This document shows, one piece after another, positions 12,520 through 22,057 of a stretch of DNA of 27,547 nt (the stretch's first letter is position 1; each line of letters begins with the position of its first letter). A program made the translations under genes and the position numbers. Location: positions 17,606 through 45,152 of the forward strand of contig FN647863.1 of assembly GCA_000310025.1 (NCBI GenBank). The letters run 5' to 3'. The notes under the pieces are model-generated. The model did no database searches, was not told the origin of the DNA, and saw nothing but the letters and a program-made list of their open reading frames with translations. Source of the DNA: Ectocarpus siliculosus. Taxonomy: Eukaryota; Sar; Phaeophyceae; Ectocarpales; Ectocarpaceae.

Positions 12520-15500
12520 TTAGTACTCGTCCCCGCTGTCCTTGCTGTCCTTGGTGTCGTCGTCGTAGGTGTAGTCGTAGCTGAAGTCGTTGCCCGGCTC
12601 AGCCATGCCACACCTCTGAAGGCACTGCTGGCGAGCCGCCGCCGGTGCATCGGGGAGTGACTCGATCAGCTTCTGGAGAGCGGGCTCTTCGAAGTTCAGC
12701 GAAGCCTGTGGGTGCATCACAATGACGACAATTGAAGCCCGGTCAAGATTCTGTGGAAGGGCGATTCGAGGAATACCACATACCCTGTACTATGTATTAC
12801 CGAGTGATTGAGACATGCTTTCATGAACGTTGCAACCAAGGATTTGAAGCAGAGTGCGAAAGGCTACAACATACTATTGCTGAGAGGAACTGAGCACGCA
12901 CCTGGATGGCCTCCGTCGGCAGCTCGAAGAAGCGAGTCGTGATCGTAACGGCACCGGGGTCGTCGTTGTTCAGCGCGGCCAGGAACGTCGCCGGCTCGCA
13001 GTCAAGGTTTTGCTGGTAATGGATTAGCCCCTGAGGGAAGAAAGCCACGCCCCCCTGGGCAAGGTCATTGACGACGGCCCCCTCGCCACCGTTCTCCTCT
13101 ACGAACGCCACCCGGACTTGCTCGCCCTTGATCACGTACAACATCTGTGAATGAACGGAGTGTTATGTCGGGGGATGGGGGCGAGGTTGAGGCTCGTATA
13201 TCTTTGAGGTGAACTTCGTCCGCAGAGCGTCATACATACGTAAGTGTGGCATCACTGTGTTCATGGCTACGGTCATGATCTGCAGCTTCCGGCAACAAAT
13301 CGTCGTAGCCACAAACTCAACGTCAATTTACTTCAGGTGAAGATCGTGGTTGACTTCGCCAGCTTGTGTTCAACCGTTCACGCTTATCGCTACTACTTTC
13401 ACGGCACAGGTGATCAACTGTCCATTGCGGTCACCTCGTGACCGCCTACATGCTTCCGGTCGTGGCTAGATGGGTAGCCTTCCCAAAGAAATAACCTATC
13501 GTGGCAACAACTTGCAGCACCACCAGTGCTAGCGAGGCACTGAAATTGTAACATTTTCCCGAAACACAAACAAATACACAAGGCGCCGATGCACCAACAG
13601 CAAAAAGAAAAACACCACGAAAACGACATAATAGCTTCGACATTTCTTTCTCTCGCGGCAGGTAGTCTTTTCTCGTGCTTCCCTCTCAGGGGCACGCAGG
13701 AGGCTCGTCGGCACATTAACGCTCATGCGTGGAGCTCGGCAGGCTTCCCTGGGGCGTGTGGTTGACGGTCAAAGTCACACAGACTGGCTCTATTCCCCCG
13801 GGACGCGTTCCGCGCAGACAAGGCCTGGCGAACCAATTCTGAAACCCATCAAAAACGACAGAACGGAAAATGGCCCCCACGCACTTTTCAAACAGGTTTA
13901 TCCGGCTAGGGCAGGTTTCTCGCTGCCAACAACACCTACCCGGATAAACCTGATCATGCATACACCCCCACAATGAATCCCCGTTCATGTTGCTTGTTCA
14001 AAGCTGGCGCCATCACCTCGGTTTGTGGTATTTTGGGCTGAAAATCAGTTGTCCGATTTAGCCTTAGACTATCCAATCTCCCACACTCCTGGCAGTTTTG
14101 TTGAACCGCCCATGGGACACCCATGGGTCACCCATGGGCGCTTCATTGGCCACCCATGGTTGACCCACGGGCAGGCGGCCCATGAAGTGCCCATCGTGGG
14201 CACTTCAACCTAGAACTTCGCCACCGGCATATCAACCTACAGTAGAACTTAGCCACCAGCGCCAACCTATGTAGCACGTATCGTGTGGGCTTGGGGTAGG
14301 GGGTAGGGTTAGGGTTGTTAGCCGCTATAGTGCCCGTTCCAAAGCAGACAAACTATTGTTTAGTAGTACGCTGGTTTTGAAGGACTCTCATTGGCCGCCA
14401 ATGGGCCACCCATGGGCTGCCCACGCGCTACTCATGGGCAAGCTCATGATGGCACGGGCATGGCCATGGGTGACCCATGGGCTCGCTGGTGTAGACAAGT
14501 CTGAGCGCATGCGCCCACAGTGTTATCAGTTTGCGTTTATTAGTTGTTTGCCGATTAACATTCTGTTGTTCTATTGGAAATCTGCCATCACAAAAATCAT
14601 TCGTAAAAGAATGTATGTTTGGGTCTTCCTGGTACGTTCGAGCTGGCTCCAATGTAGAACGCGTGCCGGCTTGCTAGCGTTAGGCATTTGCCCATTAAAA
14701 ATAGGAAGGTTTGTTCGTCGAAGCAGATAGAATAAACTGGTGTTTATTTTGTAACAGTCGAATTAGAATTTGGCTTCATTTTCTACCGGAAACCCAGGGT
14801 CACGGTGTTTGGAATCATTAGTCTATAGTTGGGGGTGTCATTCCGTGATCGAGTCCACGCAGGGGCTGTAGCAAAGTCGGGTAACGTGTGACAGCTACAG
14901 AGCGTGTGAAGCAACGGAAGGACAGCAGCAGCCGCCTAACGCAGTAGCGGCGGCAGTTTAGAAAAGGGCGGGACGGGACACGGCGCAAGCATTGGGGAAG
15001 CGACCAGCACGCGACTCTCCATATAAAGGTGTGTACTCGTGTCCAACATCCATCGTGTCGGCCGTGTTCCTATTCGCGTCCCGCTACTCTTGTGACCTCA
15101 CCGCTGCGTGCATTTAGCACGAGGGGGGAGGGTGCAGTAAGATAAGCGGCGGCAAGCCACCGCAGTCTCGCTCGCCGCGCCGCTCAGATAGGTCCCTTCC
15201 CAAACATGGGATGCGGTTCATCCCAACCGAGACGTACTCTCGCTGAAGAAAAAAAATGCGGTTCGTCCCAACCGAGACGTACTCTCGCTGAAGAAAAAAA
15301 AAATAGATAAGCGGCGGCAAGCCACCGCAGTCTCGCTCGCCGCGCCGCTCAGATAGATCCCTTCCCAAACATGGGATGCGGTTCATCCCAACCGAGACGT
15401 ACTCTCGCTGAAGAAAAAAAATGCGGTTCGTCCCAACCGAGACGTACTCTCGCTGAAGAAAAAAAATTCAACGGCAAAAAGAAAGAGCGGGGCCTGTTGT

Positions 15501-18500
15501 ATGGTCGCACGCTGACTTGTCGCGGTTGATAGCAGCCATTGTACTGCACGGGGTGGAGGAACCCTGCGGCATCGGACATAACCAATCGACCCGCGGCAGT
15601 AGGGCATGATGCTGTCACGAGTATGCACATGAGGCAGGTGCCTTGTTTTCTGTTTCCCCGGCTTACTAGGGACTACTTGCCGGTACAATCTTGTCTGTGC
15701 CGCGCACAGAGGGGCATATAGCTGAAGGAATCGACGATAATATGCCCACTCACGTAAGCAATCGTCTCCACGGATGGTATCGACAAGTCCCCACTGATGG
15801 TATCGACAAGTCCCATGGCATACAAAGCGGCCGCATACGTAATCGGAAAGTGCATTCAACAGCATTCACGGGAACGGATAAAAGCAAAAACACATGCATG
15901 CGAGAGAAAGACTCAAAGAAAAAGACTGAAAAAACAAAGAAGACGAGAAAAAAAACGAGACAGCGAACTACGTGCTGTATGCATAAGGAAAAAGAAGATG
16001 AGAAAAAAATAGGGGGGGGAGGTGAAAGTGACACGCGAGGTTCGAACTCGCGAGGAACGTCAGGTAGCGGTTCCATGTTAGTGCATCACGGTCTCGAGGG
16101 GCATCACGTCAGGGGCATCACGTCAAATTTATTGCCGCTGTGACACAAACCTTCTATAAGAATACGTCACGTCCATCGACGATTAGGCGACCAAAAACGC
16201 CCGGACAGCAATTGATGCATGCCAAAAACTCGTCAACCTGCCGTAGGATTGTCTATGCGGAAGTGATCTCAATGAAAAAAAAAAAAAACAAGGACACGCA
16301 CCAGCACGGGACGCGCCAATAGTGGAAGCACTCGTCCGTGCTGTTGGCGAGTGGAAGTTAACCGATCTCAACGCAACGAAACACGAAGTCATACATGTAT
16401 CAGCACGGGATGCGCCAATGAGTGGAAGCACCCGCGCTGTTGGCGAGTAGAGTTAACCGAATTCAATGCAGCGGTAGAAAAATACCACAAATCATGCATC
16501 AGTACGGGACGCGCCAATGAGTGGAAGCACCCGTGGTGCATATGTGATGTCAGCCTCAGCACGGGACGCGCCAATGAGTGGAAGCACTCGTGCTGTTGGT
16601 GAGTAGAGTTAACCGATCTCAAAAAGAAAGAACAAAACGCCGTACATGTATCAGCACGGGACGCGCCAATGAGTGGAAGCACCCGCGCTGTTGGCGAGTA
16701 GAATTAACCGAATTCAACGCAGCGGTAGGAAATACCACAAATCATGCATCAGTACGGGACGCGCCAATGAGTAGAAGCACCCGTGCTGCATATGTGTTGT
16801 CAGCCTCAGCACGGGACGCGCCAACGAGTGGAAGCACTCGTGCTGTTGGCGAGTAGAGTTAACCGATCTCAAAAAGAAAGAACAAAACGCCGTACACGTA
16901 TCAGCACGGGACGCGCCAATGAGTGGACGCACCCGTGCTGTTGGCGAGTAGAGTTAACCGAATTCAACGCATCGAAAACGAAGTCGTACACGTATCAGTA
17001 CGGGACGCGCCAATGAGTGCTGTTGGCGAGTAGAGTTAACCGATCTCAAAAAGAAAGAACAAAACGCCGTACACGTATCAGCACGGGACGCGCCAATGAG
17101 TGGACGCACCCGTGCTGTTGGCGAGTAGAATTAACCGATCTCCACGCATCGAAAACGAAGTCGTACACGTATCAGTACGGGACGCGTCAATGAGTGGAAG
17201 CACCCGTGCTGCATATGTGTTGTCAGTTTCAGCAAGGGACGCGCCAATGAGTGCTGTTGGCGAGTAGAGTTAACCGATCTCAAAAAGAAAGAACAAAAAC
17301 GCCGTACACGTATCAGTACGGGACGCGCCAATGAGTGGACGCACCCGTGCTGTTGGCGAGTAGAATTAACCGATCTCCACGCATCGAAAACGAAGTCATA
17401 CACGTATCAGTACGGGACGCGTCAATGAGTGGAAGCACCCGTGCTCATATGTGTTGTCAGTTTCAGCAAGGGACGCGCCAATGAGTGGAAGCACCCGCGC
17501 TGCGTACAAGTATCAGTACGGGTCGCGCCAATGAGTGGAAGCACCCGTGCTGCATATGTGCTGTCAGTTTCAGCGAGGGACGCGCCAATGAGTGGAAGCA
17601 CCCGCGCTGTTGGCAAGTGGAGTTCACCGTATCCAACGCATCGAAAAAAATAGAAAAACACGTATCAGCACGGGACGCGCCAATGAGTGGAAGCACCCGT
17701 GCCGATGGCGAACCGGGGTTCACCGAATCCAAGAAAATATATGTATAAAAAAAAAAAAAGAGAAACCATCGCTAGTGTTCCAAAGAGAGAAATATTCGGG
17801 ATTGGTCGACGTCCGGTGACCGTAGCGTCAGCAGCAATAATCACTCCGTTCAATCCACAGGCGTCGAGAACGAACTAACGCGAGCTACGCGATATAACAA
17901 CGCGTCGTTCTGGGCCCGACGAAAACCCACGTCAGATAGTTTCGCCCGAAGATAGGATTTGTAGACCATTCTAACTGCAGATCCAGGCGCGCGATCGACT
18001 ACGCCCACGATGAAGAGGAAAAGAAGTGTTCCCGCAACGCCGCCCTGACGCTCGCCCGCCGCCTGCCGCCGGTCCGCTGCTTATACGACTCCAACCGCGA
18101 CCAGATGCCGACACGGGCCTCCACGCGGAGCGGCAGGGCAGCGGGTGGGCAAGCAGGGCGAGGTCGGGCGGCGACACCTTCGACACCACGCACGAGGAGG
18201 TCTACCGCGCGATCGGTGGCGAGCTCGACGGCTCGCCCCTCGACGCGCAGCGGATCACGTACTCCCGCGAGGCGTCGAGCGGTATCCTCCTCGCGAGCGC
18301 CAGGGACAGGCACCCGCGGCGACCCCCCCGCTGATGAGACTGAGCTCGCTTCTCTCCGCGGGCTGGTGGACGGCCTGAGGGAGGAGCTGCAGCGGAAGCG
18401 CGATGAGGCTGCCGGCGATCGCCAGCAGCTTCAAGCAACGATCGACGACCTGATCGCCACCCAAGCAGCAGGACCTGGCCTTCCGGGGGGGGGGTGCAAC

Positions 18501-21500
18501 TGGTGGGCACAACCGCCCCACCATCGGCCTCTCGGGCCCCCGCTACACCCAGCGCCGAGGCGGCTAAGGCTACGGCAAAGGATAGAGCGCGGATGTGGGG
18601 GGACCTCCGCCGGGTAAAAGCGTGGCTCATCCTGGGGTGGCCTCCGGCAGTTTCAAAACTGTCGCAGATGGAGTGGCAATCCTTGCTTCGCAAAGGCGTC
18701 CTGGTGACAGAGAAAGTGGCGGCATCGCTCGACACGCTCGTGGTTACTGCTTCGCCTTCAACTCGTCGTCCGGTTGCCATGATCGTAACTGCCCACACAT
18801 CCACGCCCAGAACCCTTCCCACGCTAGGCGCGGAGCGTCCGAAACTCCGGCAACCGGCGCGCGCGGCGTTGGCCACGGCAACGGGGGAGGGCGCGGAGGA
18901 GAGGCGCGCGCCGCTGGCGAGGGCGGCGCGAGACCCAAGGCCGCTGGCTTCTTCACCCACGGGAAAGACAAATAGGGGTGCGGGCTCTCCCGCGTAGCGG
19001 GGGGGCCTACCTCGGATGGCAGCGCACCTGCGGCTAAATCGAACGGCAGCACGCCGGTCTACACGAGGTTGGCTCCAGGGCTATCAGCAGGTTCAGGACC
19101 CGGGACAGGCAGGACGGGACTTTGTTACCGACGTCTTGGCATGCAGCTCGTCGAGCACTCAGTTGCGTCTTCGTCTAGAAGGACTTACACGTCAGGCTTC
19201 AACTCTTGGTGCACGTTTCGCAGGCTGACGGAGAAGCCCAAGTTCCTAGGGCAACGTGCCGGGGACCTTCATGTGTGGGAGTTGATAGACTTCGTAGCCT
19301 GGTGTTTCGAGTCTGAGGGTAATCTAGCGAGTACAATATCCGGAAAACTCACGGCTGTACAACATTTTCATAGGCTGGAAGCTTCTGTCGAGCTAGACTT
19401 GTCGTCTCCGATGTTGAAATGTGCGCTAAGGGGGATTGCGAGGAACCACGTGGCTGTGGGGACGATACGCCGTGTGCGCCTGCCTGTGTCTTGGCGTATG
19501 CTGCTGGACGGGGAAAGCGCAAGCCAGAACTGGGGGGAAGGGGGCAGAGTGATGTGGCTGTGTCTGTGCTTGTCCTATCTCTTTATCACACGGTCTGATG
19601 AGGTGTTCGCGAATGATGCGGGCAGGGTGCATGAGGCACACTGTCTTACGAGGGCGGACGTAGCATTGTTTGCTGGCGAGACGCAATTAGTCTTTAGTCA
19701 CTATCGTAGAGCAGACCGTGTCGAAATGAGGTTTAGAGGGCACAAGGCCGATCAAGAGCAGAAAGGAAACATACGGGTTCGTACGCGAGACGAAGTCACC
19801 GGACCGCAGTCAGGTGTGAGAGCACGCGGCGGCGCGGTGGCTCTTGTGGTGGAGCTGTTATCGTGTCATGCGACGTTGCCTGACTCCGCACCGTTGGCTT
19901 CGTACCGTAGTGGAAGAGCAGTGAGAGTAGTGAGGTATACTGCTGCCCTCCGTGCAGTCAGAGAAGTGGTAGCGAAGTCGGGGCGTAACCCCCAGGAGTA
20001 CGCGTTGCACTCGTTGCGAATTGGAGGCGCGACGGCTCTTGCATCGGGCGGAGACATCGCAGAACGAGTGATTCAGAGAGAAGGGAAGTGGAGGTCGGAT
20101 GCATACAAGCCGTACGCGCGAAACAATGTAGAGGATTCGCGGCGAGTGTCACGGAAACTTACAGACGGCAGTAGGATCGTATCGAGACAGCCGGGGGAGG
20201 GGACCGTCTGGGGGAACGGATAGTTGACTTTATTCGGTGGTCGTCCAGAAACTGACCTCGATGTGGGTGTTGTAGAATGGTGTGTACCATTTGAGGACTT
20301 GTTCAGTTTTGGGACTCCTGCGTTTGCAGTGGTAGTCCCCCGGATAGTATTTGTGGGGAGAGAGATGGATTTGTAAGAGTTGACGCCGGCCTTTGCAGCT
20401 AACGCGGCCGGAGAGACGATGAGCGTTTCGTGGGTCTCTCTCCCCAACACGTAGCCTAGAAACCGAAGAAATAATGAAGCAATTCGAAAGAAAACAAAAT
20501 AAAAGGAAGGTTTGTTCGTCGAAGCAGATAGAATAAACTGGTGTTTATTTTGTAACAGTCGAATTAGAATTTGGCTTCATTTTCTACCGGAAACCCAGGG
20601 TCACGGTGTTTGGAATTATTAGTCTATAGTTGGGGGTGTCATTCCGTGATCGAGTCCACGCAGGGGCTGTAGCAAAGTCGGGTAACGTGTGACAGCTACA
20701 GAGCGCGTGAAGCAACGGAAGGACAGCAGCAGCCGCCTAACGCAGTAGCGGCGGCAGTTTAGAAAATCCCGCCCTCCCATCCCTTTTCTTTCGAAGGTGG
20801 GGGCATAAGTTCGGGAATATTCGGTATCTAGTCAGGTGTTGTAGAATGGTGTGTACCATTTGAGGACTTGGTCAGTTTTGGGACTCCTGCGTTTGCAGTC
20901 GTAGTCCCCCGGCTAGTATTTGTGGGGAGAGAGATGGATTTGTAAGAGTTGACGCCGGCCTTTGCAGCTAACGCGGCCGGAGAGACGATGAGCGTTTCGT
21001 GCGTCTCTCTCCCCAACACGTAGCCTAGAAACCGAAGAAATAATGAAGCAATTCGAAAGAAAACAAAATAAAAACACACAGCCTATTTCCGGCAATACGC
21101 ATGTGGTCTTGCGTCGCCCGCGGGAAGCTTGACACCCACGTCTCCAGAAGGGAGACCTTGCAAAGTCTACAATATGTAGTAGTCTATGTGCTCGATACCT
21201 CCAGACTGTTCTTACACATGAGTGTAGTAGACAAGATCAATCTGTTGCAATATCTTTTGACGTAAGATGGAGAATGAGACCTTTAGTCTAACCCGAAACC
21301 GAGAATGAGAGGAGTTTCACAAGAATTACATAGCGCTACAGCAGTACAGCACGGCAGCGGATTAGGAAACAACCGTCGATTGAACGCTGCAGGCTCGTTC
21401 ACCTCCGTGGCACGCGGGTGGATGTGAGGCAGATTGATGGCGCATGGGTCGAGGTTCACAAGGGCCATCGAGATGCCTTGTCCGTCCAGAGCCGGCAGCT

Positions 21501-22057
21501 GGTTCACGTTGACGAAACGGATCTGGAAGCCGTCCACCAGTGCATCGGGCTCAGGACCGCCGAGGCTGAACACGAAGTCCTCGGGGTTGAACAAGGTGAT
21601 TTGTTGCTGAACGCACGAAGGGGAAACACGAAGGGCAGCATCGAAATCAGGGGGGCGTTGTCGAGCCATCGACAGCACTGAGGGAGTAAAAGCATGTCGT
21701 GGCTAGTCGAGAAATAATGAGCTGGTCCATACAGCAAAATTGTAGCAACGAATCGCCGGACCAAGCTCTCGGGCTCGGGCCGATGTTTTGCACGCTGCAT
21801 GCGCACTCCCGATGTGCCGGAGTCCTGCTCTACAGCAGCGCGCAGCCGAGCACCGGACCACAAACTTCGTCTGCGCTGCTCGCTACAGTAGCTACAGCCA
21901 TGGTACCGCAGTAGAACATGACTGTATGTAAAGCGCCTCTCTTGTTCTTTCATGGCTTTATCTGTACCTGCGCAGTGACGACGCCGGAAGCCTGCACCGT
22001 AGACGGCATGAGCCCAGCGGCAATGACAAATCCAGCAGCAGCGCAGAAGGTCTTCAT
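12520..22057 (-). CDS. Germin/spherulin-like cupin, secreted, four exons
   Basis: This is a single-domain cupin of the germin/spherulin 1A type; relatives are extracellular metal-binding proteins, some with oxalate oxidase or superoxide dismutase activity. Exons on the minus strand: 22057-21968 (signal peptide MKTFCAAAGFVIAAG), 21606-21403, 13144-12902 and 12705-12520. All junctions are phase 0: GCGCAG|gtacag to gttcag|CAACAA, ACGGAG|gtgaac to cacag|ATGTTG, ATCCAG|gtgcgt to cacag|GCTTCG. The joined product has 240 residues. Box 1 reads LPHIHPRATE with ligands His91, His93 and Glu98; box 2 reads FFPQGLIHYQQN with His140. The junction of exons 2 and 3, HPRATE/MLYVIKGE, matches the unbroken germin motif. 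The C terminus has the CLQRC pair (Cys207, Cys211) typical of spherulin-type members and an acidic Asp/Tyr tail. Introns are 361, 8,258 and 196 bp. The huge second intron contains a retroelement in reverse orientation. Substrate and activity cannot be read from sequence. Confidence 0.9.
13893..13952. repeat. 13-bp inverted repeat
   Basis: caggtttatccgg at 13893-13905 is repeated as its exact reverse complement at 13940-13952, around a 34-nt loop. It could be a hairpin or a remnant transposon end. Nothing else in the flanks supports either reading. Confidence 0.7.
14109..14481. repeat. Two further CCCATGGG clusters and a perfect hairpin
   Basis: Octamers start at 14109, 14120 and 14131, and again at 14409 and 14474, with near copies between (for example gccatggg near 14463). 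At 14184-14206 gaagtgccca and tgggcacttc form a perfect 10-bp stem with a 3-nt loop. The flanking words cattggcc and gcccatgg recur in both sub-clusters. These are the same palindromic family as at 10451-10537. Confidence 0.8.
14703..14965 (+). repeat. Split direct repeat A1 (left end)
   Basis: It begins aggaaggtttgttcg and ends ggcagtttagaaaa. Its length of 263 bp equals A2, and I find about two differences (gaatcattag/gaattattag and gcgtgtg/gcgcgtg). The left flank ends attaaaaat, resembling the aaaataaaa that precedes A2. Confidence 0.9.
15022..15028 (+). promoter_or_regulatory. TATA-box-like site in the element leader
   Basis: ccATATAAAggt lies 57 bp after A1 and follows a GC-box-like gggcgggacggg at about 14966, in the orientation of the element's genes. 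The absence of this block after A2 fits a promoter that drives full-length transcripts from the 5' end only. Inference from motif and position. Confidence 0.4.
15141..15468 (+). repeat. 164-bp tandem duplication with a nested ~45-bp repeat
   Basis: gataagcggcggcaagcc starts at 15141 and at 15305, and the two 164-bp units are nearly identical. Inside each unit a block of about 45 bp (gcggttcrtcccaaccgaga ... ctgaagaaaaaaa) also occurs twice, so there are four copies of the short block. The reverse frame gives an apparent ORF that is only repeat translation. Confidence 0.85.
16021..16120 (-). ncRNA. tRNA-like / pol III-type fragment (weak)
   Basis: On the minus strand 16051-16035 forms a perfect T-arm, GCGAG-TTCGAAC-CTCGC, which is also a good pol III B box. 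The following GTGTCAC can pair with an upstream GTGATGC as an acceptor stem with two G-T pairs. A T-run that could terminate pol III lies about 25 nt further. A convincing D arm and anticodon arm are missing, so this is a degenerate tRNA or the head of a tRNA-derived SINE rather than a working tRNA. Confidence 0.3.
16302..17703 (+). repeat. Minisatellite of 18 hairpin-forming units
   Basis: A 39-bp core occurs 18 times, starting at 16302, 16401, 16500, 16557, 16652, 16750, 16807, 16902, 16996, 17079, 17173, 17230, 17314, 17408, 17464, 17514, 17571 and 17666. The core is cagcacggg, a 21-nt loop containing cgccaatgagtggaagca, and cccgtgctg; the 9-nt arms are reverse complements. Spacings cluster near 50-57, 83-84 and 94-99 bp, giving a higher-order pattern with two linker types (gttaaccgatctcaaaaag... 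and catatgtgttgtcag). Copies at 16996 and 17230 lack part of the core. The many overlapping ORFs (GRANEWKHP, SARDAPMSGS) are repeat translations. Confidence 0.92.
17938..18975 (+). pseudogene. gag-like ORF with coiled coil and CCCH zinc finger, frameshifted
   Basis: Coding segments in series: RAIDYAHDEEEKKCSRNAAL (frame 0, from about 17985), DTFDTTHEEVYRAIGGELDG and SREASSGILLASARDRHPR (frame 2), LASLRGLVDGLREELQ with heptad-like spacing (frame 0, a likely coiled coil), then GYCFAFNSSSGC..C..H (frame 1, 18740-18801). The last is a C-x8-C-x4-C-x3-H finger followed by a Gly/Ala-rich tail ending at TAG 18973. The order of helical region, coiled coil and C-terminal finger fits ORF1/gag proteins of YR retrotransposons, which package RNA. 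At least three frame changes mean it cannot make one protein. No ATG fits the first segment. Confidence 0.55.
19141..20223 (+). CDS. Tyrosine recombinase of the split-direct-repeat element
   Basis: This encodes a DNA strand-exchange enzyme that would integrate the element's circular copy. From ATG 19141 it is 360 residues with no interruption; the frame is open further upstream but has no earlier ATG I trust. Residues 1-100 form the SAM-like DNA-binding part (SSRRTYTSGFNSW). Catalytic residues: Arg151 in FITRSDE, Lys202 in GHKADQ, His290 and Arg293 in HSLRIGGAT, Trp317 in GKWRSD and Tyr325 in AYKPYAR (Tyr322 is the alternative nucleophile). The HSLRIGGAT and W-S-D-AY-x-x-Y motifs are those of DIRS/Ngaro-type recombinases. 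Repeat B1 begins 42 bp after the stop, and the gag-like ORF ends less than 170 bp upstream. All catalytic positions are present, so it may be active. Confidence 0.9.
   Translation: MQLVEHSVASSSRRTYTSGFNSWCTFRRLTEKPKFLGQRAGDLHVWELIDFVAWCFESEGNLASTISGKLTAVQHFHRLEASVELDLSSPMLKCALRGIARNHVAVGTIRRVRLPVSWRMLLDGESASQNWGEGGRVMWLCLCLSYLFITRSDEVFANDAGRVHEAHCLTRADVALFAGETQLVFSHYRRADRVEMRFRGHKADQEQKGNIRVRTRDEVTGPQSGVRARGGAVALVVELLSCHATLPDSAPLASYRSGRAVRVVRYTAALRAVREVVAKSGRNPQEYALHSLRIGGATALASGGDIAERVIQREGKWRSDAYKPYARNNVEDSRRVSRKLTDGSRIVSRQPGEGTVWGNG
20266..20504 (+). repeat. Split direct repeat B1
   Basis: 239 bp from ggtgttgtagaatggtg to the aaaacaaaataaaa end, where A2 begins. It differs from B2 at about four positions (ttgttcag/ttggtcag, cagtggtag/cagtcgtag, cggatag/cggctag, cgtgggtc/cgtgcgtc). 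The junction B1-A2 mimics a head-to-tail joint of the element's two ends. Confidence 0.9.
20504..20766 (+). repeat. Split direct repeat A2
   Basis: 263 bp, the partner of A1. It is followed by 68 bp of unrelated sequence (tcccgccctccc...) before B2. Confidence 0.9.
20835..21073 (+). repeat. Split direct repeat B2 (right end)
   Basis: 239 bp, the partner of B1, ending in aaaataaaa at the element's right border; cacacagcc of the host intron follows. No target-site duplication is evident, as expected for tyrosine-recombinase integration. Confidence 0.9.

Follow-up and report, generated by a model that had tools for sequence, protein, structure and literature searches.

A probable non-autonomous Ngaro-type tyrosine-recombinase retrotransposon family in Ectocarpus siliculosus, with reverse transcriptase-bearing relatives in the same genome

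The DNA analysed here (the window) is a stretch of 27,547 nucleotides from the brown alga Ectocarpus siliculosus (assembly GCA_000310025.1, contig FN647863.1, positions 17,606 to 45,152 of the forward strand), and it holds a mobile element in which an A repeat, a non-coding leader, a gag remnant, an open tyrosine recombinase (YR) frame and the repeats B1, A2 and B2 follow one another on the plus strand (Table 1). The same arrangement recurs at many other places in the genome, and relatives with similar termini carry reverse transcriptase (RT) and ribonuclease H (RNase H) between gag and the recombinase. We therefore consider it very likely that this element is a non-autonomous Ngaro-type YR retrotransposon, which was amplified after it had lost RT-RNase H together with two pieces of gag.

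Split direct repeats of the form A1...B1A2-B2 had been proposed from the sequence-only reading of this DNA, and they are indeed present at those places, with B1 adjoining A2. A1 and A2 differ by two mismatches and B1 and B2 by four, neither pair requiring a gap, and the likeness within both pairs is far beyond chance; the A repeat measures 262 or 263 nt, as a single A (14703/20504) can be assigned either way. The same reading had named unrelated nested insertions as an outcome that would overturn it. This was checked and ruled out: the pairs form one unit, the repeat set recurs at similar spacing, and both pairs occur together in other copies, complete A1...B1A2-B2 sets being found at the loci that we label L021, L023, L024 and L044. 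Split direct repeats with the internal ones downstream of the YR are a hallmark of Ngaro elements. The spacer between A2 and B2 recurs, with 100% identity, in the RT-bearing copies L040 and L041, and it is also present in a solo unit, L047. The leader carries a 162-nt direct duplication (15140-15301 and 15305-15466) and, from about 16265 to 17738, a variable tandem array with the repeated core GGGACGCGCCAATGAGTG, which occurs 14 times in the window element, 9 times in L023 and, in the fetched stretches of the RT-bearing copies L039, L040 and L041, 10, 11 and 5 times, respectively; the array is thus found in RT-bearing copies too, and the A1-A2 spacing differs between copies.

Upstream of B1, the intact recombinase of 360 residues that had been reported is likewise present, within a frame that is open for 415 codons (18976-20220), has its first ATG at residue 56 and ends its stop 42 nt before B1. 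Pfam returned no recombinase match for the window, L039 or L038 protein; for comparison, the ALOG-type element L025 matches Phage_integrase at E 0.00038, below the curated cut-off. The window recombinase does match a profile of ALOG-type YRs, L025 among them (E 3.3e-6, probability 88%, 75 columns), and R151, K202, H290/R293, W317 and Y325, which we take to be the YR catalytic set (R, K, HxxR, H/W, Y), are identical in the window, L039 and L038. The L038 recombinase, which belongs to an RT-bearing element, is 43-45% identical to that of the window. It is because of the ALOG-type profile match and the identity of these residues in L038 that we assign the protein to the tyrosine recombinases, a YR with (presumed) catalytic residues being a further trait of Ngaro elements. 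Neither the recombinase nor the L040 pol matched any solved structure at E up to 1, and a single-sequence predicted structure of the recombinase, with a mean predicted local distance difference test score (pLDDT) of 30.6, was set aside.

A gag-like open reading frame (ORF) had also been placed before the recombinase. There is CCCH-bearing gag sequence here, but the ORF at 18586-18972 is only the C-terminal part of a broken, internally deleted gag: the 542-aa gag of L039, used as a tblastn query, matches the window in three pieces in three frames, and only the finger end is in frame with the recombinase. The same gag is open over its 542 aa in L039; Pfam gives no family for it, and the CCCH finger is our own reading. 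Alignment to L039 shows that 2,056 bp of RT-RNase H are gone from the window element, as are two stretches of gag, measuring about 0.5 kb and 84 bp. That no RT lies between the CCCH finger and the recombinase, as the sequence-only reading held, is confirmed by tblastn with the L040 pol, which finds only residues 1-39 and 723-768 in the window (E 0.001 or better), residues 40-722 being missing, and by Pfam, which finds no RT in four window ORFs. The window copy thus lacks the RT-RNase H that Ngaro elements carry between gag and YR, whereas its lineage has it, as described below.

Table 1. Features of the window element (positions are those of the window)
Feature	Position	Strand	Remark
A1 repeat, left terminus	14704..14965	+	99.2% identity to A2
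Non-coding leader	14966..17738	+	direct repeats D1-D4, D7, D8
Broken gag remnant, N-terminal part through CCCH finger	17940..18972	+	tblastn with 542-aa L039 gag
Gag internal deletion junctions	18739 and 18862-18866	+	plus small indel in G run
UAG in frame with downstream ORF, context TAGGGGTGCGGGCTC, then predicted stem-loop	18973..19007	+	candidate readthrough signal
Tyrosine recombinase ORF, 415 aa and stop	18976..20223	+	360 aa from first ATG at 19141
Pol start, first 39 residues, upstream of RT deletion	18976..19092	+	tblastn with L040 pol, 95% over 39 aa
Junction of 2,056-bp RT-RNase H deletion, 6-nt overlap	19087..19092	+	alignment to L039
B1 repeat	20266..20504	+	adjoins A2
A2 repeat	20505..20766	+	
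Spacer A2-B2, 68 nt	20767..20834	+	
B2 repeat, right terminus	20835..21073	+	

To define the family we searched the host genome (189 Mb, 492 contigs) with the recombinase and scored 101 loci of 750 candidates, all counts being lower bounds. At least 101 recombinase loci are present, and 48 matches span the RT-less frame (query residues 1-415, in one case 1-413), 44 of them free of stops across the fused pol-start/recombinase frame. Twenty of the spanning loci were fetched (L001-L020, L001 being the window copy), and every one has all three deletion junctions. B2 is present in 17, and their 14-nt right flanks are all different, which argues for separate insertions rather than segmental duplication; L003 stops after B1, and L008 and L017 have A2 without B2. 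The same internal junctions in 20 of 20 loci, together with 17 differing right flanks, indicate that an already-deleted copy multiplied and was inserted at many places. Many copies with exactly this RT-less layout were what the sequence-only reading had expected of a distinct family, and they exist.

The terminal repeats tell of the same unit. A pattern for the inner end of A has 210 sites in the genome, and the first 100 listed comprise 45 A1-type and 55 A2-type sites. Among these listed sites there are 31 nearest A1-to-A2 pairs within 25 kb (median 5,945 bp), of which 27, with 27 A1 and 25 different A2, are 5.1-6.3 kb apart; the rest are separated by 1.1, 3.3, 7.9 and 19.6 kb, the 7.9-kb pair being the RT-bearing locus L039. 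Within copies, A1 and A2, and B1 and B2, are 98.3-100% identical (seven copies for A, five for B). A subfamily (L022-L024) whose recombinase is 81-86% identical to that of the window shares the RT-less junction region, and its A differs by 6-7% from the window's A; L023 and L024 have complete repeat sets, and L022 has no A1 in the fetched stretch. This homogeneity within copies, set beside 6-7% divergence of A between subfamilies, fits repeats that are rebuilt in each cycle. None of the seven copies with both ends (two of them incomplete units) shows a target duplication of 5 nt or more, the longest flank match being 4 nt, in L024 and L044, with 2 nt of slack at each end; lack of a target-site duplication is again typical of Ngaro elements.

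Other copies depart from the common layout. L043 and L044 are differently deleted, L047 is a solo A-spacer-B unit, L043 and L003 are A-internal-B units without A2B2, and at C12:1582108 and 1582677 two A copies lie 569 bp apart. The solo unit, the A-internal-B units and the closely spaced A copies show that A and B junctions recombine. At C26:3449951 (L017) an A in the A2 position is followed by internal-type sequence, and both this arrangement and the C12 pair look as if units had been inserted beside an existing copy.

A HS[FL]RxGG pattern, designed to miss the window family, gave 29 matches and exposed other families. In L037 and in L038 a related recombinase is preceded by RT-RNase H; both repeat pairs, a CCCH gag and a pol in several frames are present in L038, and L037 has one direct-repeat pair at its 3' end. 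With the L038 RT as query (122 of 228 candidates scored), an RT match was found 0.3-0.7 kb upstream of the recombinase, on the same strand, in 6 of the 101 window-family loci (search interval 6 kb). Among the loci scored, RT-less copies thus far outnumber RT-bearing ones (48 spanning matches as against 6 with RT), both counts being lower bounds and the query favouring RT-less copies. The three of these six loci that were fetched (L039, L040 and L041) all have RT-RNase H between gag and recombinase. L039 consists of A1, the tandem-repeat leader, the 542-aa gag, a UAG, a 690-aa pol, a 392-aa recombinase and B1A2, and L040 of A1, leader, gag, a 768-aa pol, a 392-aa recombinase, B1A2, the spacer and the start of B2, which is cut by the end of the stretch. 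In the recombinase region these relatives are 97.2-97.8% identical to the window at the DNA level. Their A and B repeats are mostly 95.8-97.3% identical to the window's (whole repeats of L039 and L040; A2 of L041, 92.5%), and A of L039 and L040 is 96.6-97.3% identical to the window's A1. Since such close RT-bearing relatives exist in the same genome, the window element is a deletion derivative, the outcome that had been foreseen should relatives prove to contain RT-RNase H between gag and recombinase.

How such a derivative could have spread may be pictured as follows. A full-length parent would have carried gag, a UAG, RT-RNase H and recombinase between A1 and B1A2-B2, and would have lost RT-RNase H and two gag pieces while retaining its terminal repeats and an open recombinase frame. 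Gag and RT made by full-length copies would then presumably package the RT-less transcript and reverse-transcribe it, a circle would form across the B1A2 junction, and integration would proceed through a recombinase, either the element's own or the parent's. Because the RT-less copies must have multiplied after the deletion, RT, and probably Gag, would have come from elsewhere, and the RT-bearing copies with similar A and B repeats are presumably their natural source. The suggestion of a trans-mobilised non-autonomous family is therefore supported, by inference, from the RT-less copies with common junctions and from the RT-bearing relatives, and it holds together with the description of the element as a deletion derivative. 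The other possibility raised at the outset, a new class of YR element, is rejected on the ground of the RT-bearing copies in the same family.

Several points weigh against this reading. The full parent is pieced together from L039-L041, none of the three fetched copies showing it whole: L039 is without B2, its match ending 17 nt into the spacer; the gag frame of L040 passes the UAG by way of a small indel; and in L041 gag and pol are both broken, the stretch contains no A1, and B1A2 and the spacer are followed by only the first 38 nt of B2. Moreover, RT-bearing copies need not be active. The Pfam RT model matches the L039 and L040 pol weakly (E 0.018-0.02, below cut-off), and the RT identity follows from what we take to be a YVDD box and RNase H motifs in pol and from the similarity to L037 and L038 pol, with which the L040 pol aligns at 36-52% identity. 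Finally, the RT-less recombinase bears no clear sign of selection since RT loss and may be a passenger. The window and L039 recombinases differ by 14 silent and 5 replacement changes (dN 0.0062, dS 0.0545, for replacement and silent sites, respectively), but three-way arithmetic with L041 places most of the constraint on the L039 branch, and for this reason we do not claim purifying selection on the RT-less recombinase. By a manual calculation, some 2 silent and 2.5 replacement changes fall on the window branch since RT loss, and variant codons across the 20 RT-less copies comprise 5 silent and 7 replacement changes. Since these changes do not clearly depart from neutrality, the frame may be open merely through the youth of the family.

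Alternative histories were weighed against the trans-mobilised deletion derivative. Instead of arising by random deletion, the RT-less form might have started out as a retrocopy of a spliced recombinase mRNA of the parent. Indeed, the RT deletion can be placed, among equivalent positions, so that it begins with GT and ends with AG (GTGTGG...TGGCAG), and the pol start is fused in frame with the recombinase. However, the 6-nt overlap at this junction also fits microhomology or template switching, and neither the two gag deletions nor the deletion in L043 has a GT-AG placement. We therefore regard such an origin as unlikely; on the junction sequences, loss of RT would most simply be explained by a microhomology or template-switch deletion. 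We give distinctly less credit to a self-sufficient RT-less class in which the recombinase alone excises and inserts a DNA circle, in the manner of Cryptons and with no RNA stage. Such a class would suit the fact that the recombinase is the only long frame to stay open (stop-free in 44 of 48 spanning matches), as well as the existence of [A-int-B] and [A-spacer-B] units apart from one another (L043, L003, L047) and of the A copies 569 bp apart on C12. It is at odds with RT-bearing copies whose termini are closely similar, and with long split direct repeats and gag remnants, which Cryptons are not known to have; nor is it easy to see how cut-and-paste would raise the copy number so far or keep the repeats of a copy alike. 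Taken together, these points make it very improbable. That every RT-less copy is an independent decay product, as the differently deleted L043 and L044 might suggest, is hardly credible and, for the main family, is contradicted: all 20 fetched loci have one and the same set of three junctions, with differing right flanks, and repeats are near-identical within copies.

The end of gag deserves separate mention. The gag of L039 and that of L038 are each closed by a UAG, beyond which pol continues in frame, and in L041 the UAG is in frame with the gag finger end and with 131 codons of the pol start; in L040 the small indel leaves gag and the UAG in different frames, an argument against strict conservation. 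The window family and L038 have exactly the same context, TAGGGGTGCGGGCTC, even though tblastn at E 0.001 matches neither the L039 gag nor the first 96 residues of the L040 pol to L038. A search of the genome with the pattern BTAGGGGTGCGGGCT returned 8 matches, as compared to 1 for a reversed control, and four of the eight (at C13, C25, C178 and C186) are followed on the same strand by RT matches of the L038 family; a further match lies at C27:3810723. The three that were fetched, L048-L050, show a glycine-rich frame, a UAG and an in-frame GCGLR...GP start as in L038; their TAGGGGTGCGGGCTC context is identical by virtue of how they were selected. The UAG positions are L038:4507, L048:660, L049:647 and L050:656. 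A stem-loop directly 3' of the context is predicted in five of six folded sequences, with modest z-scores of -0.5 to -2.1, and +0.5 in L050. Together, the gag UAG and its conserved context suggest a candidate for stop-codon readthrough. A full-text literature search found no paper pairing Ngaro with readthrough; should the context prove functional, Ngaro would have a recoding signal, and this may matter more than the RT-less family itself. A fuller scheme can be drawn in which Ngaro Gag-Pol is made by readthrough of a UAG that has a conserved 3' context and a stem-loop, a spliced recombinase mRNA gave rise to the RT-less family, and the satellite depends on the parent for RT and Gag but encodes its own recombinase in a finger-UAG-recombinase frame; as a whole we think it improbable. 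One of these Ngaro-like loci, L049 (647-1101), has a recombinase remnant (HSGRIGGAT) no more than about 130 codons beyond the gag stop, with further stops in the intervening sequence, and is perhaps a second RT-deleted derivative.

With regard to its setting, the minus strand on either side of the element encodes portions of a germin-like cupin (Pfam Cupin_1 positions 3-57 within 21283-21699, positions 55-134 within 12821-13159), and the element thus seems to be located in one of the gene's introns. The genome also holds ALOG-type PAT/DIRS-like elements with RT-RNase H and YR (L025, L029, L030 and L034; by Pfam for L025 only), and many RT matches in the genome belong to elements with ALOG-type recombinases. 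A PAT-like helper of this kind (L025 and relatives) was considered and rejected on a comparison of the recombinases, which are only remotely similar to that of the window. The ALOG-type recombinase with zinc ribbon that marks PAT/ALOG-DIRS elements is absent here: the Pfam ALOG model reaches L025 at E 7.9e-5, just below cut-off, and has no match in the window, L039 or L038 YR. Lack of a methyltransferase domain sets Ngaro apart from DIRS/PAT elements; Pfam finds none in the L039 or L040 pol, but it finds none in the PAT-like L025 either.

Comparison with known systems places the element among the Ngaro retrotransposons. Ngaro elements of Cafeteria burkhardae have an A1-[ORFs]-B1A2B2 layout with a Gag-like ORF, RT-RNase H followed by YR, solo AB units and a length of about 6 kb (PMC8547959). 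The window element is like them in repeat layout, solo AB units and length and, through its full-length relatives, in the Gag-like ORF and in the order of RT-RNase H and YR; it differs in that the window copy lacks RT-RNase H, its gag is broken, and A2 and B2 are 68 nt apart. For Ectocarpus itself, 15 Ngaro families with 3893 copies, 689 of them intact, have been reported (PMC12477816). This is the same group of transposable elements, in a genome that likewise has Ngaro and PAT-like families; the main text of that source, supplements aside, describes no RT-less Ngaro in the part covered, and the window family may already be listed in its Ectocarpus transposable element library. ALOG-type DIRS1/PAT-like RT-bearing YR elements have also been reported for Ectocarpus (PMC3537659) and seem to be present in this genome as L025, L029, L030 and L034, and their recombinases align with that of the window only near the C-terminal HxxR...W...Y part. 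In Trypanosoma cruzi, SIRE, a non-autonomous relative of VIPER, matches the A2-B2 region of a YR retrotransposon (PMC6681497). The solo unit L047 resembles SIRE as a non-autonomous A2-B2 unit, whereas SIRE as described is without a recombinase and the window element has one. Cryptons (PMC4157794) are similar to the window element in having a YR without RT. They are YR-only elements that are not known to have long terminal repeats, and the window family has split direct repeats, gag and an RT-bearing parent, none of which Cryptons are known to possess. Our literature searches, which covered titles, openings of abstracts and text passages of openly available papers, found no RT-less Ngaro family that retains its recombinase. 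As far as these sources go, Ngaro, SIRE-like non-autonomous derivatives and solo AB units are already known (PMC8547959, PMC6681497); the Ectocarpus copies would add to them a clear pair of parent and satellite within the YR retrotransposons, whose manner of integration is still poorly understood, and such a pair would permit a direct test of trans-mobilisation in these elements.

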